From Candidatus Saccharibacteria bacterium (lineage in GTDB: Bacteria > Patescibacteriota > Saccharimonadia > Saccharimonadales > Saccharimonadaceae), in NCBI GenBank assembly GCA_016432585.1, contig CP066696.1, forward strand, positions 514,113 to 578,112: 64,000 nucleotides of DNA, given 5' to 3'. Shown piece after piece: positions 42,338 to 48,578 of the stretch (the stretch's first letter is position 1; the number at the start of each line of letters is the position of its first letter). The position numbers were made by a program, and so were the translations under genes. The notes under the pieces were generated by a model. The model saw only the letters and a list, made by a program, of their open reading frames with translations. It ran no database searches and had not been told where the DNA came from.

Positions 42338-43229
42338 GGTCAGAAGTTTCCGAGAAGGACCCGCCAGCTGCATCCACAAGTTTTGCATAATACGAGGTCG
42401 CAAGAGGCTGAAACCACTTTCGCTCACGGACAACACCTTCTGGAATACGACCGACACACGACAGACTAGCCTCAATCTTGTCGAAAACCTCGTCGTGCCG
42501 TCCTTCGTTTGCTACTTTGCGACGAAGATACACGTCGTTCTCCCTGCACGCCTCATCGTCTCCACGAACCAAGAACGCCTGACGCCGAACCACTTGCACG
42601 GCACCGCTTTCGGTTTCTAGCCGTCCGATATCCCGCTTTCGTAAGACAGTAATCGCCGGAATATCAAGGCGCTTCGTTTTTGTCTTGTATCGCCCAGGCT
42701 CGTCAATAAACTCAAAACCCATGTAGGCGAGCGTGTACATAACTTCGCTATCCATTTCGGCAGTAGCACCAGTATCGAGCGGGTGCGTTAATTTAGCAAC
42801 CTCTAGGGAATTTAATTTCGGGTAATCAACCAATAACGAGATAAGCTCGCCAGGAGTGGCGGTTCCGTTTTTTGCTTTTTCATAGCGAGGGTCATCTTCG
42901 TCGACCATGCCGTGTTCTAGTTTGCCGGGGTTAAGATCCATGCGACGACTCTGCGAATCGTAAAGAGAAGTTTCGATAACGCCATGAAGTTGCTTAGCTA
43001 AGTCTGGCGATTCTACCCAGCCTTGTTCAATCGCGCCCATAAGTGCCGCTTGCGAGGCGTCGTGAATTCGAAGAACAGAAGCAGCGAGGTATGTCTCGCG
43101 GCGCTTTCGCAGCCAACGACCCGTTTCTTCGGCCGCTGTCCATGGTTCAAGCGGAACAGCACCGTACGTAAGGCGGTCTCGCTGTTTGATTAAGTGTGGT
43201 TGCCGGTTTTCGCGCATCGGACCTATCAT
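42330..43229 (-). CDS. Conserved-looking hypothetical protein, 299 residues
   Basis: I do not recognise this soluble protein. It has no signal peptide or membrane helix. An N-terminal helical part includes ETGRWLRKRRETYLAASVLRIHDASQAALMGAIEQGW, and the C-terminal half is mixed (LDIPAITVLRKRDIGRLETESGAVQVVRRQAFLV). Composition matches native neighbours, unlike the GC-rich units. TAATAT lies exactly 6 bases before the ATG, suggesting a leaderless mRNA. It sits opposite the rplJ leader and overlaps tmk by 8 bases. Confidence 0.6.
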   Translation of the reverse strand: MIGPMRENRQPHLIKQRDRLTYGAVPLEPWTAAEETGRWLRKRRETYLAASVLRIHDASQAALMGAIEQGWVESPDLAKQLHGVIETSLYDSQSRRMDLNPGKLEHGMVDEDDPRYEKAKNGTATPGELISLLVDYPKLNSLEVAKLTHPLDTGATAEMDSEVMYTLAYMGFEFIDEPGRYKTKTKRLDIPAITVLRKRDIGRLETESGAVQVVRRQAFLVRGDDEACRENDVYLRRKVANEGRHDEVFDKIEASLSCVGRIPEGVVRERKWFQPLATSYYAKLVDAAGGSFSETSDPK

Positions 43230-43291
43230 TATGTCATATTATCGAACATATAGCAATAGCTATGCCTGTTCTCTCTATAAAAACTAAACCG

Positions 43292-43511
43292 TTGACATTT
43301 TAACACGTCGTTTGTTATACTACACGTAGACATTACCAGAGACAGTAGCCGTGGAAACACTTAATTTGCTACCGAGGATGTAAATAAACATTTCATCATC
43401 ATGTATAAGTCTTTGGTAATGCGAGAATCAAAGACTTTTTTCTTTGGCCTCTCATTACCAGCACGTTAACAATTTGGTCGAATGAAAACATCAATCAAAG
43501 AAAGGATTTTT
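43292..43511 (+). promoter_or_regulatory. rplJ promoter and competing-hairpin L10 leader
   Basis: TTGACA (43292-43297), 18 bp, TATACT (43316-43321) starts a leader of about 185 bases. CATTACCAGAGAC (43331-43343) can pair with GTCTTTGGTAATG (43409-43421), closing a domain with GTAGC/GCTAC inside. The same right-hand strand also pairs with CAAAGACT (43429-43436) plus six T as a terminator, and TGGTAATG (43414-43421) also pairs with CATTACCA at 43453-43460. The folds exclude one another, as expected of an L10-controlled attenuator. Confidence 0.75.
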
Positions 43512-44036
43512 ATGGCAATTTCACGCGATAAAAAGCAAACTTTGGTTGCAGAAATGAGTGAGACACTCAGCGCTTCAAAAATGACTGTGTTCGCACAGTA
43601 CCAAGGTTTGAGCGTTGCCGATGTCCAAGAGCTCCGCGGCAAAGCCCGCGAAGCAGGCGTTACTATCAAGGTTGTTAAAAACCGCCTTGTCCGTGTCGCC
43701 CTTGGCTCGATTGATACGTACAAAGATACCGACACATCGCCACTAACGGGCCAATTGCTTTACGCAATCAGCTCGGAAGACGAAGTTGCTCCAGCACAGG
43801 TTTTGGATGCGTTTGCAAAAACACACCCAGCACTTGTATTCGCTGGTGCATTTTCAGGCGAAGGTGCGCTTCTGAGTGCCGATGAGGTTAAGGCGCTTGC
43901 TGGGCTTCCTAGCAAAAACCAACTTATTGGCCAGGTTGTATCGCAACTGCTTTCACCCGTACACGACGTTACAAACGCACTATCTGGCAACCTACACGCG
44001 TTGCTCGATGGTGTTGAAGCTAAAGCAACCAGTTAA
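43512..44036 (+). CDS. rplJ: 50S ribosomal protein L10
   Basis: The 174-residue protein has the L10 N-terminal rRNA-binding domain (KKQTLVAEMSETLSASKMTVFAQYQGLSVADVQELRGKAREAGVTIKVVKNRL) and a C-terminal helix that carries L7/L12 dimers. The ATG at 43512 is chosen because AGAAAGGA lies 5 bases upstream; an ATG at 43482 is inside the leader. It is followed by rplL after 29 bases. L10 usually represses its own leader. Confidence 0.95.
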   Translation: MAISRDKKQTLVAEMSETLSASKMTVFAQYQGLSVADVQELRGKAREAGVTIKVVKNRLVRVALGSIDTYKDTDTSPLTGQLLYAISSEDEVAPAQVLDAFAKTHPALVFAGAFSGEGALLSADEVKALAGLPSKNQLIGQVVSQLLSPVHDVTNALSGNLHALLDGVEAKATS

Positions 44037-44065
44037 ATTAAATTACGAATATAAAGGAGTCTATC

Positions 44066-44437
44066 ATGGCTGATATTAAGAAACTTGCGGAAGAGCTTGT
44101 AAAGCTTACCGTACTTGAGGTTAACGACCTTAAAACTATCCTTAAGGATGAATATGGCATCGAGCCAGCTGCTGCAGCTGCCGTTGCTGTTGCTGCTCCA
44201 GCTGAAGCTGGTGCTGCAGAAGACGCAAAGAGCGAATTTACTGTTACCCTAAAGGACGCAGGTGCTCAAAAAGTTGCTGTTATTAAAGCAGTTAAAGAAA
44301 TTACCGGCCTTGGTCTTGGTGAAGCTAAAGCTCTTGTTGACGAACCAGGTGTCATCAAGGAAAAAGTCTCTAAAGACGAAGCTGAAGCAGCTAAAAAGCA
44401 GCTTGAAGAAGCTGGCGCAACCGTCGAACTTAGCTAA
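44066..44437 (+). CDS. rplL: 50S ribosomal protein L7/L12
   Basis: This 123-residue stalk protein has the N-terminal dimer helices ([22 protein letters not shown]), an Ala/Val-rich hinge, and the C-terminal GTPase-factor binding domain ([22 protein letters not shown]). AAAGGAG precedes the ATG. It shares the rplJ transcript, which ends at a terminator after the gene. Confidence 0.97.
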
Positions 44438-44476
44438 TTTCAATCATTCGATCATTTGTTAACCTATCATAGAAAG

Positions 44477-44499
44477 CCGTCACCCAGTGGCGGTTTTTT
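44477..44499 (+). terminator. Terminator of rplJL
   Basis: CCGTCAC and GTGGCGG pair around CCA, with one G-T pair, followed by six T. Confidence 0.85.
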
Positions 44500-44501
44500 A
44501 T

Positions 44502-44530
44502 TTGCAAATCACAGCGCAAGGGCGTATAGT
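44502..44530 (+). promoter_or_regulatory. Promoter of the ilv operon
   Basis: TTGCAA at 44502-44507, 17 bp, TATAGT at 44525-44530. RNA would start within 1-2 bases of the leader peptide ATG at 44539. Confidence 0.7.
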
Positions 44531-44538
44531 TGCTCTTA

Positions 44539-44601
44539 ATGAGCGTTTCACAACAAATTATCATTCTCAGCGTCCTCACTTTGCCACACAAGCGGCGCTG
44601 A
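44539..44601 (+). CDS. Branched-chain amino acid leader peptide (20 residues)
   Basis: The small frame reads MSVSQQIIILSVLTLPHKRR and stops at TGA. It has three Ile codons in a row followed by Leu, Val, Leu and Leu, the amino acids whose supply the downstream genes affect. It starts 8 bases after a -10 hexamer, so it is likely translated from a leaderless mRNA. TCAGCG (44567-44572) inside it pairs with CGCTGA (44596-44601) at its end, and CGGCGC (44593-44598) can pair with GCGCCG (44644-44649) in the following terminator. This is the layout of classical ribosome-mediated attenuation. Confidence 0.78.
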   Translation: MSVSQQIIILSVLTLPHKRR

Positions 44602-44632
44602 TTTGCTCATCACAAAATAATCGAAACAGAGC

Positions 44633-44664
44633 ATCCCGGCCCCGCGCCGGGATTTTTGTTTTTT
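44633..44664 (+). terminator. Attenuator terminator before ilvB
   Basis: ATCCCGGC at 44633-44640 pairs perfectly with GCCGGGAT at 44646-44653, followed by TTTTGTTTTTT. It lies between the leader peptide and the ilvB ribosome site. Confidence 0.88.
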
Positions 44665-44682
44665 ACAGAAAGGAGACACTCT

Positions 44683-46413
44683 ATGCCCACGCAAAAAAGC
44701 ACAGCCCCACCCACAAACGGAGCCGAAGCACTGATACGATGTCTCGAAAATCAAGGCGTTGAATATATTTTTGGCTATTCCGGCGGAGCGGCGATTCCTA
44801 TTTTTGACGCTATTATCACCACTAACACCTCGATTAAATTAATTGCCACCAGGCACGAACAGGGCGCTGCACATATGGCCGACGGCTACGCCAGGGCAAG
44901 CGGCAAACCGGGCGTGGTGCTTGTAACAAGTGGCCCGGGAGTTGGCAATATCATTACCGGCCTCATGACCGCGCACATGGACAGCGTGCCGATTATCGTT
45001 ATTAGCGGGCAGCAAATTACCTCTATGCTGGGGCTCGACGCGTTTCAAGAGGCGGATACGTTCAACCTTAGCATGCCTGTTGTGAAGCATAACTACCTTG
45101 TTCTTTCCACAAACGACATTCCGAAAGTAGTCCACGAAGCATTCGAAATAGCGACCAGCGGCCGGCCAGGGCCAGTGCTTATCGACATCCCAAAGAACGT
45201 TAGTGCTGGTGACTTTAGTGGCTCAGTTGAAACACCAGCTCAAACAAAGACGCAGCAAAATACCAACCTAAGCAAGCCGGCCGCAACTGTGGCAAATCTT
45301 CTTGTAAAAGCCAAGCGCCCCGTAATTCTTGCCGGACATGGCGTGCTTATTGACGGGGCTCAAAAGCTACTTAAGGACACTGCACAGCAGTTTGATATTC
45401 CCGTCACAACGACACTACTGGGCAAAGGCATTATCGACGAAACCAGCGATCTTTCGCTTGGCATGCTGGGCATGCACGGCACGGCCTACGCCAACAAAGC
45501 TATCGAGGAATCGGATGTTATTTTTGCTATCGGTTCGCGGTTCGACGATCGTATTATTGGTGACGCAGCAAATTTTAGCAAAGGTAAAACAATTATCCAT
45601 GTCGATATCGACGTCGCAGAACTTGGCAAAATTATCACGCCCGATCTTGCCGTGCAGGCAAGTGCAAGCGACTTTTTAAACACGTTGATTCATACAGGCA
45701 TTACTGGCGAGCATAGCAATTGGAAAGCGCGGATTGCACAAAACAAAAAGCAATTCCCACTAACCTACAGCGACACAGCGGGGCTTTCGCAGCAGCACAT
45801 TATTGACAGTATCATGCGCCACACCAAGGGGCGGGCAATTGTCACCACCGATGTGGGACAGCACCAAATGTGGGCAGCGCAGTTTTATAAAGTAGCCAGC
45901 GCTAACCACTGGATAAGCTCGGGTGGTGCGGGAACCATGGGATTTGGACTTCCAAGTGCAATTGGCGCGCAGTTCGCTAGACCCCACGAGCAAGTTGTTA
46001 CTTTTGTGGGCGACGGTGGATTTCAGATGACATCGTACGAACTCGCCACCGCAGCCATTCATAAGCTGCCTATAAAAATAGTTATTATGAATAACCACTA
46101 CCTTGGCATGGTACGCCAATGGCAAGAGCTCTTTTACGATAACCATCTTAGTGGCGTCAATATGATTGGCAACCCAGACTTCGTAAAATTGGCCGAGAGC
46201 TACGACATAAAAGCAATTTCAATCGAACACCCCAGTGAAGTCGACAAAAAAATCGAAGAGGCTTTTGCCTACAGCGACGGGCCAATTGTTATTAACTGCG
46301 AAGTGGCTAAAACCGATAATGTCTACCCGATGATTCCGCCGGGCAAAGGCTATGGCGATATGATTATTAGCCCGCCCGAAACGCAACTAGAAAAACCAAC
46401 AGGGAGCACCTAA
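44683..46413 (+). CDS. ilvB: Acetolactate synthase large subunit
   Basis: The 576-residue enzyme joins two pyruvates, or pyruvate and 2-oxobutyrate, in branched-chain amino acid synthesis. It has the N-terminal TPP domain with the catalytic glutamate in [18 protein letters not shown], the central FAD-type domain (SRFDDRIIG), and the C-terminal TPP site [12 protein letters not shown] with [12 protein letters not shown]. The ATG at 44683 follows AAAGGAG by 7 bases. It overlaps ilvN by one base and is controlled by the upstream attenuator. Confidence 0.95.
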
Positions 46414-46661
46414 TGAAGCACGAAACCGATCACACATACACACTTATTATTACCGCCCACAACAGCCCCGGAGTACTCGTACGCTGCGCACAGATTTTTA
46501 ATAGACGCGGCCACAATATCGAATCGCTTCATGTGTCGCCAATTGCTGGATCGAATGAATCGCGCATGACTATTACCGCATTTGGCAAGCGCGAAACGAT
46601 TCATCAAATTACCATGCAGCTACAAAAATTAATCGACATTACTGCAATCACGGAAGGATAA
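46413..46661 (+). CDS. ilvN: Acetolactate synthase small (regulatory) subunit
   Basis: This 82-residue protein is a single ACT domain (YTLIITAHNSPGVLVRCAQIFNRRGHNIESLHVSP), the valine-sensing module of the small subunit. It lacks the C-terminal domain of long IlvH types and is like the short E. coli IlvN/IlvM form. It overlaps ilvB by one base (TAATG) and precedes ridA by 4 bases, fixing the stoichiometry with the large subunit. Confidence 0.9.
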   Translation: MKHETDHTYTLIITAHNSPGVLVRCAQIFNRRGHNIESLHVSPIAGSNESRMTITAFGKRETIHQITMQLQKLIDITAITEG

Positions 46662-46665
46662 TAAA

Positions 46666-47034
46666 ATGACAGCCTACGGACCATATACGCCAATCGTTAG
46701 CGCGAACAACATGCTATTCATATCGGGACAAATTGGCATAGACCCAAAAACAAATCATGTCGGTCAAACGGTCACCGAGCAAACAAAACAAGTGTTAAAA
46801 AATATGGAAACTCTCCTCGCGAACGAAGGAGCGGGTCTTGGCGATGTCGTAAAAACGACCGTTTTTCTTACTGACATGTCAACGTTTCAAGAAATGAATG
46901 CCGTTTACGAAAACACCTTTCCAGCACCGCGACCCGCACGTAGTACGGTAGGTGTTAAGGAACTTCCACGGCTCGGCGACACGCCGTTACTGGTTGAAAT
47001 CGAGGCGATTGCCCGCAAAAAGGAGGTTGCATGA
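46666..47034 (+). CDS. ridA: RidA/YjgF family imine deaminase
   Basis: The 122-residue protein has the family motifs LFISGQIGIDPKTN near 18-31, the VKTTVFLTDMSTFQEMNAVYE segment and PARSTVGVKELPRLGDTPLLVEIEAIA, with the catalytic arginine in PARS. RidA hydrolyses reactive enamines released by threonine dehydratase, the product of the next gene. It overlaps ilvA by 4 bases. The pairing with ilvA strongly supports this role. Confidence 0.93.
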   Translation: MTAYGPYTPIVSANNMLFISGQIGIDPKTNHVGQTVTEQTKQVLKNMETLLANEGAGLGDVVKTTVFLTDMSTFQEMNAVYENTFPAPRPARSTVGVKELPRLGDTPLLVEIEAIARKKEVA

Positions 47035-48578
47035 GCCCTATTGTTATAGACGAAGCAATAAAAGCCGTTCTCACCGCAAGAGTCTACGACGTCGCTATTA
47101 AATCGCCGTTGCAAAAAGCTGAAAAACTCAGCGTCGAATCGGCAAGGGAAGTCTATTTAAAGCGCGAAGATTTACAGCCCGTCCATAGTTTTAAGCTACG
47201 CGGTGCGTACAATAAAATCGTACAACTTAGCAAACATGAACAATCGCTTGGTGTTATTACTGCAAGTGCCGGAAACCATGCACAGGGCGTTGCGCTGGCT
47301 GCTCAAAAACTCGGCATAAGCGCGCTGATTATTATGCCTCGCACCACCCCAGCTATTAAGGTTGAGGCTGTCAAAAGTTTTGGCGCGACAGTCGAACTTG
47401 AGGGCGACAGTTATTCGGACGCAGCCGAGTACTGCAAAAAAAGGATCAAAGAAACTGGGCGCACCTACATACATCCGTTCGATGATCCACTTGTTATTGC
47501 AGGGCAAGGAACAATTGGGCGCGAAATTGTAGAGCAGCTTCCGTCGTGCACGCATATATTTGTTCCAGTAGGTGGCGGGGGACTTATCGCCGGTATCGCT
47601 ACCTACATAAAAAGCGTTCGCCCAGACATCAAACTTATTGGCGTGGAGCCCGAAGATAGCAACGCCATGCAAGCAAGTATTATGCAGAAAAAGCGTGTGA
47701 CTCTTTCGCATGTCGGAATCTTTGCCGATGGCGTCGCCGTAAAGCAAGTTGGCGAAAATACATATCCTATTGCACGAGATAAGGTGGATGATTTTATTAC
47801 CGTTTCGACCGATCAAATTTGTGTAGGGATTAAACGTATCTTCGAGGATACTAGAAGTATCGTTGAACCAGCAGGCGCCCTAGCAATTGCAGGCATTCAG
47901 TCATATGATTTACCAAAAGATTCGGTTGCAGTTGCAATATGCTCTGGAGCAAACATGACATTCGAACGCCTCCAGCAAGTTGCCGAACGAACACTTACTG
48001 GGTCGGGCAAAGAAGTGATCGTTTCGGTTGAACTGCCAGAGAAACCCGGGGCGCTCCGTGCGTTTTGCTCACAAATAATCGGCACGCGGAGTATTACCGA
48101 ATTTAGCTACCGCAAAAACGACAGCGAAGCAGCGCGCATTCTTGTAGGAGTTTCTGTCGCTGGAGCTGAAGATCGACGCCAGCTAACCAATAGGCTTACA
48201 GAAAAACATTACAAGCATGATGACCTTTCGGATGACGATCTCGTAAAAGCACATATTCGCCACATGATAGGCGGGCAACTCGTAGCAAAGTCGCACGAAC
48301 ATATCTACGAAGTAACGTTTCCCGAGCGCCCAGGTGCATTGGCAGATTTTCTTGAGACGATGGGCGACACATGGAATATAAGCCTGTTTCATTATCGGAG
48401 CGCAGCCAGCGACACGGGCTCGGTACTGATTGGGTTCGAGGCAAAAAACCGCGAAATGCTTGAAAAAAAGCTAGGCTCAACGGGGCGAGAATGGACAAGA
48501 GTCGACACAAATACAGGAATCGAAACGTTTCTTAGACAAGAATATAAAAATAACAACGTTTTTGCGCATACCTCTTAA
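47031..48578 (+). CDS. ilvA: Threonine dehydratase, biosynthetic type
   Basis: The 515-residue PLP enzyme makes 2-oxobutyrate from threonine. The PLP lysine is Lys55 in HSFKLRGAYN, followed by SAGNHAQGVALAA and the phosphate loop VPVGGGGLIAG. Two ACT-like regulatory domains follow (about 325-500), each with a PGAL motif (EKPGALRAF, ERPGALADF), the isoleucine-feedback architecture. It is the last gene of the ilvB-ilvN-ridA-ilvA operon. Confidence 0.95.
   Translation: MSPIVIDEAIKAVLTARVYDVAIKSPLQKAEKLSVESAREVYLKREDLQPVHSFKLRGAYNKIVQLSKHEQSLGVITASAGNHAQGVALAAQKLGISALIIMPRTTPAIKVEAVKSFGATVELEGDSYSDAAEYCKKRIKETGRTYIHPFDDPLVIAGQGTIGREIVEQLPSCTHIFVPVGGGGLIAGIATYIKSVRPDIKLIGVEPEDSNAMQASIMQKKRVTLSHVGIFADGVAVKQVGENTYPIARDKVDDFITVSTDQICVGIKRIFEDTRSIVEPAGALAIAGIQSYDLPKDSVAVAICSGANMTFERLQQVAERTLTGSGKEVIVSVELPEKPGALRAFCSQIIGTRSITEFSYRKNDSEAARILVGVSVAGAEDRRQLTNRLTEKHYKHDDLSDDDLVKAHIRHMIGGQLVAKSHEHIYEVTFPERPGALADFLETMGDTWNISLFHYRSAASDTGSVLIGFEAKNREMLEKKLGSTGREWTRVDTNTGIETFLRQEYKNNNVFAHTS

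Follow-up and report, generated by a model that had tools for sequence, protein, structure and literature searches.

The ilvB operon and its leader region

The window analysed here is a 64,000-nt stretch of the genome of a Candidatus Saccharibacteria bacterium, and its ilvB operon is the subject of this study. On the plus strand the operon comprises ilvB, coding for the acetolactate synthase large subunit (44683-46413; TIGR00118), ilvN, coding for a short small subunit of 82 amino acids (46413-46661; TIGR00119), ridA of the enamine/imine deaminase family (46666-47034; TIGR00004) and ilvA, coding for a biosynthetic-type threonine ammonia-lyase (47031-48578; TIGR01124). All four products score over the cut-offs of these families; IlvN matches the N-terminal half of its family only. 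Directly upstream of the leader lies rplL (44066-44437), which has its own terminator (44476-44497). Between rplL and ilvB we found a promoter, a 20-codon frame and a strong terminator, which very probably form a leaderless-peptide, ribosome-mediated transcription attenuator controlling ilvB-ilvN-ridA-ilvA.

The promoter predicted at 44502-44530 (+) is sigma-70-like, with a -35 box TTGCAA (44502-44507), a 17-nt spacer and a -10 box TATAGT (44525-44530); chance alone would give 0.3 promoter-like sites in the 401 nt that were scanned. From the promoter spacing, the RNA is expected to start at about 44537-44539, on the leader ATG or no more than some 2 nt from it. The leader peptide frame (44539-44601, +; ATG at 44539, TGA at 44599-44601) reads MSVSQQIIILSVLTLPHKRR. 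No Shine-Dalgarno sequence precedes 44539, and the -10 box lies 8 nt upstream of the ATG, a spacing kept in relatives. The frame and its three consecutive Ile codons (ATT ATC ATT, 44557-44565) are present near the predicted RNA start, as described in the initial annotation. Judged by sequence and by the folding model, the control codons are Ile7-Ile8-Ile9-Leu10-(Ser)-Val12-Leu13 (IIIL.VL; 44557-44577, +). The ilvB gene has a Shine-Dalgarno sequence, AAAGGAG, at 44669-44675 (+).

We also scanned both strands of the window for frames of 10-40 codons and for promoters scoring 8 or more whose distance from the frame start is 6-10 nt. Among the 1460 short frames, 244 contained a run of three Ile, Leu or Val codons and two of these had a well-placed promoter. 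A terminator followed downstream in one alone, the frame starting with ATG 44539.

Alternative folds of the leader RNA

The fold of the leader RNA was better than that of all 200 shuffled sequences (z = -3.9). Two of the folds claimed initially were recovered at the same positions (+): the segment 1:2 stem (TCAGCG, 44567-44572, with CGCTGA, 44596-44601) and, upstream of ilvB, a strong intrinsic terminator (3:4) with a U-run, ATCCCGGC-CCCGC-GCCGGGAT-TTTTGTTTTTT (44633-44664), whose hairpin has an energy of -14.1 kcal/mol. Five of the six pairs of the 1:2 stem are kept in G023 and G004, two of the 393 genomes of the order Saccharimonadales used for comparison (G-numbers denote genomes). The third fold, an alternative stem of 44593-44598 with 44644-44649, is indeed complementary, but it needs the terminator 3′ arm. 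A better antiterminator (2:3) was obtained in the folding model at 44592-44645 (+), where 44592-44595 pairs with 44642-44645 and 44597-44600 with 44637-44640, aided by pairing of 44604-44608 with 44629-44633. The partner of 44592-44600 is the terminator 5′ arm and loop; an analogous pairing occurs in G023 and a shorter version in G004. Complementarity is likewise kept in both genomes for ATGAGC/GCTCAT (44539-44544 with 44605-44610, +), a pairing that may sequester the leader start codon.

In a cotranscriptional model, the probability of the terminator was calculated with its 3′ arm half transcribed and with a ribosome blocking the RNA as far as 14 nt downstream of the A-site codon's first base. 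A ribosome placed on Ile7, Ile8, Ile9 or Leu10 of the window leader gave a probability of 0.00, one at the stop codon gave 0.96, and the ribosome-free leader 0.87. In the model, the mutually exclusive antiterminator was thus favoured when the ribosome was stalled on the control codons. This ribosome-dependent contrast was matched by none of 200 shuffles, and the G023 leader gave a like contrast (0/200). Similar contrasts were obtained for the leaders of G269 (1/200), G292 (10/200) and G281 (17/200), and a weaker one for that of G004 (22/200).

Recurrence of the leader upstream of ilvB

Distribution of IlvB in the order is patchy: 21 of the 393 genomes gave a match at E ≤ 1e-60, and 13 genomes besides the window's own carry an ilvB orthologue (about 48% identity or more). 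A leader peptide rich in branched-chain amino acids (BCAA) precedes 12 of these 14 orthologues, in related genera as well as across several families of the order. Examples are the peptides of G023 (MSMNNNIILSIITTSTARR), G004 (MSASQNIILSIITTATPRR), G292 (MSLNNNVLSIIVLVPRGVVC) and G281 (MRNQLISEVIIINPA); close counterparts of the window's leader type were found in G023 and G004 only. A terminator is present in 11 of the 12 leaders. In G342, G366, G296, G380 and G277 the leader lies at a greater distance upstream and precedes ridA or a small frame.

As scored, ten of the 12 ilvB leaders have 7-9 nt between the -10 box and the ATG; the figure is 8 nt in G380 if a second in-frame ATG is taken, and G366 has 11 nt. 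Among random sequences, 3.7% had an equally good best promoter at 4-10 nt from the end, and the spacing recurs with differing upstream genes. As the -10 box lies just before the ATG, the ilvB leader peptides are predicted to be leaderless; such a constant spacing is what leaderless translation would require.

We considered whether the leader was inherited together with a transferred ilvB, and rejected this: among the closest ilvB genes from outside the order (Verrucomicrobia and others), judged by identical criteria, none has such a leader. In G209, ilvB itself appears to be leaderless (TTGCAA-17-TAGAGT, 8 nt, ATG; L096), and no attenuator peptide was seen there.

Leaders upstream of leuA and a second leader type

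In G342 a second leader of similar layout precedes a leuA-like gene, which belongs to the isopropylmalate synthase family but scores far below the equivalog cut-offs. Such a gene occurs in ten of the 393 genomes, and a leader precedes it in all ten. The control regions of these leaders consist of runs of Leu (LLLLSL, LLLSL, LLLLGL) and contain no more than two Ile and Val codons, against four or more in each of the ilvB leaders, so the control codons follow the downstream gene; the leuA and ilvB leader counts are not phylogenetically independent. The -10 box lies 6-10 nt from the ATG in nine of the ten. The leuA leaders have a GLCFxMVEA-like end and mostly an intrinsic terminator (L123:371-507, L132-L135, L137-L141).

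Crossing helices A:C and B:D were found in 16 of 16 leuA leaders and related ilvB leaders, and in the leuA leaders they possibly form a pseudoknot. Helix B:D is rewritten to GGATCCGCTC/GAGCGGATCC in G380 and to CCCCAATTCG/CGAATTGGGG in G277, a change that is compensatory in the predicted pairing; it is reduced to 6 pairs in the leuA leaders of G207 and G279. The crossing-helix leaders are a second type, distinct from the leader of the window.

The motif GGGCTGTGCTTCANNNTGGTTGAAGCC was detected in 57 of the 393 genomes (L143-L172 and further sites; reversed-pattern control 0), and it was not found in the window genome's own family. Inspection of 30 of the sites placed it each time within a predicted leader peptide with a BCAA run, and the promoter spacing was almost invariably of the leaderless kind; the leaders bearing it look like a widespread, undescribed leader RNA. 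Many of them precede small proteins (55-100 amino acids) with almost no mutual similarity (L144, L152-L154, L157-L163, L165-L169), and several small-protein genes behind BCAA-run leaders sit just upstream of rplJ.

Proposed mechanism and its alternatives

We propose that transcription begins at or next to the leader ATG and that a ribosome would start on the bare 5′ end and translate MSVSQQIIILSVLTLPHKRR. A shortage of charged Ile (and Leu/Val) tRNA would make this ribosome stall on codons 7-13 and cover the 5′ half of stem 1:2. During the stall, while the 3′ arm has yet to be transcribed, 44592-44600 could pair with the terminator 5′ arm and loop, and read-through by RNA polymerase would follow. 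With plentiful charged tRNA the ribosome would reach the stop codon and cover 44592-44600, allowing the terminator to form; if there is no translation, stem 1:2 would form and the terminator too. The initial reading of the locus as leaderless translation coupled to attenuation gains support from the recurring BCAA leaders, the constant promoter-ATG spacing, the terminator and the shift to Leu codons before leuA.

Several results weigh against this mechanism. At equilibrium the full-length fold favours the terminator (0.90) despite ribosome stalling; read-through would therefore have to be kinetic, with the antiterminator forming before the terminator 3′ arm. The modelled switch was weak or absent in several second-type leaders (G296, G307, G366) when nested folds alone were allowed. 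The window's leader type is represented by three sequences only (window, G023, G004), which show little covariation. A recognisable leader was not found before ilvB of G209 and G317, and the ilvB leader of G277 (L094:961-1106) has no U-run terminator. The latter keeps both helices, and its GCAACAC can pair with GTGTTGC beside the ridA Shine-Dalgarno sequence; together with the lack of a U-run, this suggests translational rather than transcriptional attenuation in G277.

Among other explanations, the attenuator may be real with its peptide translated by ordinary initiation on a longer transcript, such as rplL read-through. The location of rplJL directly upstream and the fact that the start of the leader RNA is a predicted one would fit such a transcript. 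Yet there is no Shine-Dalgarno sequence for ordinary initiation, the rplL operon ends in its own terminator, and the -10-to-ATG distance stays within narrow limits in 11 of 12 ilvB leaders (7-9 nt, counting G380) and nine of ten leuA leaders behind differing upstream genes; we consider this explanation unlikely. Still less probable is a constitutive promoter followed by a partly leaky terminator, the short frame being accidental and no amino acid being sensed. The strongest features of the locus, taken singly, are its promoter and terminator, but the frame, its BCAA codons and the geometry recur across families, with Leu codons instead before leuA. The least probable is control of ilvB by a metabolite-binding riboswitch or T-box with an incidental peptide: ppGpp riboswitches do precede ilvB in some bacteria (PMC10272879), but an Rfam search returned no family in the window leader up to E = 5 bar a chance-level rnk match, no T-box or ppGpp riboswitch covariance-model match in 43000-46000 up to the same E value and, in the leaders of the other ilvB genes, no family reaching its curated threshold, and the conserved parts are the peptide coding and the alternative stems, while the RNA sequence diverges between groups.

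Comparison with known attenuators

Leaderless BCAA attenuation before ilvB is a known principle and not new in kind, because a leaderless ilvL exists in Corynebacterium glutamicum and is reported in Streptomyces lividans, and there are predictions in Actinobacteria. In the enterobacterial ilvGMEDA and ilvB attenuators, whether antiterminator or terminator forms depends on stalling at BCAA codons, as proposed here; unlike the window leader, these leaders use a 5′ untranslated region with a ribosome-binding site.

The ilvL attenuator of C. glutamicum ilvBNC encodes the leaderless peptide MTIIRLVVVTARRLP, with the +1 position one nt from the ATG (Morbach 2000, as cited in PMC11857589), and is also known as the ilvB-II motif (PMC10272879). 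It resembles the window leader, which is predicted to be leaderless too, in its BCAA-rich peptide and its terminator before ilvB, and a hairpin has likewise been proposed there to shield the start codon. It differs in phylum, peptide and RNA sequence; moreover, the C. glutamicum operon includes ilvC, whereas the window genome has neither ilvC nor ilvD. In S. lividans, ilvL, trpL and others are reported as leaderless attenuator peptides (PMC8079986), and Mycobacterium tuberculosis has an attenuator in the upstream open reading frame of ilvB1 (PMC13236596). Both share with the window leader a short BCAA-codon frame and a terminator before ilvB, in S. lividans also the leaderless start that is predicted here; control codons and folds are different, and in those two species the transcripts were mapped. 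For Actinobacteria, ilvB leader peptides and a pseudoknotted leuA element (LEU) were predicted in 2005 (PMC1262725). Compared in layout only, the saccharibacterial leuA leaders are similar to the LEU element in having a Leu-run leader before leuA and a possible pseudoknot; the LEU element, however, pairs with the leuA Shine-Dalgarno box, whereas the saccharibacterial leaders mostly end in an intrinsic terminator.

The coupling of leaderless translation to attenuation, called unusual at first, is thus not so in general, given the peptides of C. glutamicum and S. lividans, but it is still unexpected in a reduced Saccharibacteria genome. In the open-access literature, judged by titles and abstracts, we found no report of such a leader or of leaderless attenuation in Saccharibacteria or Patescibacteria. 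As far as this literature shows, the lineage is new, as is the ilvB-ilvN-ridA-ilvA operon in genomes without ilvC and ilvD. The system would extend ribosome-mediated attenuation, and leaderless initiation within a regulatory switch, to Saccharibacteria, and suggests that leaderless initiation is put to regulatory use there.

A truncated target pathway

The window genome is a single contig of 952,504 bases (97% complete) from a tiny, host-dependent Saccharibacterium, an epibiont. It matches exactly ACTGGGCGTAAAGAGTTGC, that is, the 16S primer AYTGGGCGTAAAGAGTTGC, which is in published use for Saccharibacteria (PMC6073563, PMC7651992). The KARI (ilvC) and dihydroxy-acid dehydratase (ilvD) families were not found in this genome, while they were found in 14 of 14 control genomes. 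A Pfam KARI match was rejected as ilvC, as its frame looks like the succinyl-CoA synthetase alpha subunit (sucD). Nor were ilvC and ilvD found in 11 other ilvB-bearing genomes, some of them incomplete, with weak matches in G004, G023 and G307; the exceptions are G209, which has both genes, and G277, which has ilvC. An acetoin route was also rejected, as acetolactate decarboxylase is absent from the 17 genomes searched.

Since ilvC and ilvD are absent, the amino acids sensed by the attenuator would be ones whose synthesis the cell probably cannot finish alone. The truncated target pathway is the most surprising aspect of the system, and the lack of both genes raises the question of what use the epibiont has for acetohydroxy acids made under the control of BCAA supply. 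We tentatively suggest, as a possibility that falls somewhat short of being probable, that a family of leaderless BCAA attenuators, so far undescribed, exists in Saccharibacteria, that its members are set before ilvB, leuA and small orphan genes and report BCAA supply, perhaps from the host cell, and that the sensor in the window genome controls a truncated pathway unable alone to make the amino acids sensed.

Other genomic contexts were also noted. In G281 and G269, ilvB lies near look-alikes (judged by sequence) of aspartate kinase, homoserine dehydrogenase and aspartate-semialdehyde dehydrogenase (L127, L128); ilvA is not among the neighbouring genes, and no leaders were seen upstream of aspartate kinase in these two genomes. 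In the window, a ribosomal protein L10 leader (RF00557, 66.8 bits) is located at 43318-43451, upstream of rplJ.
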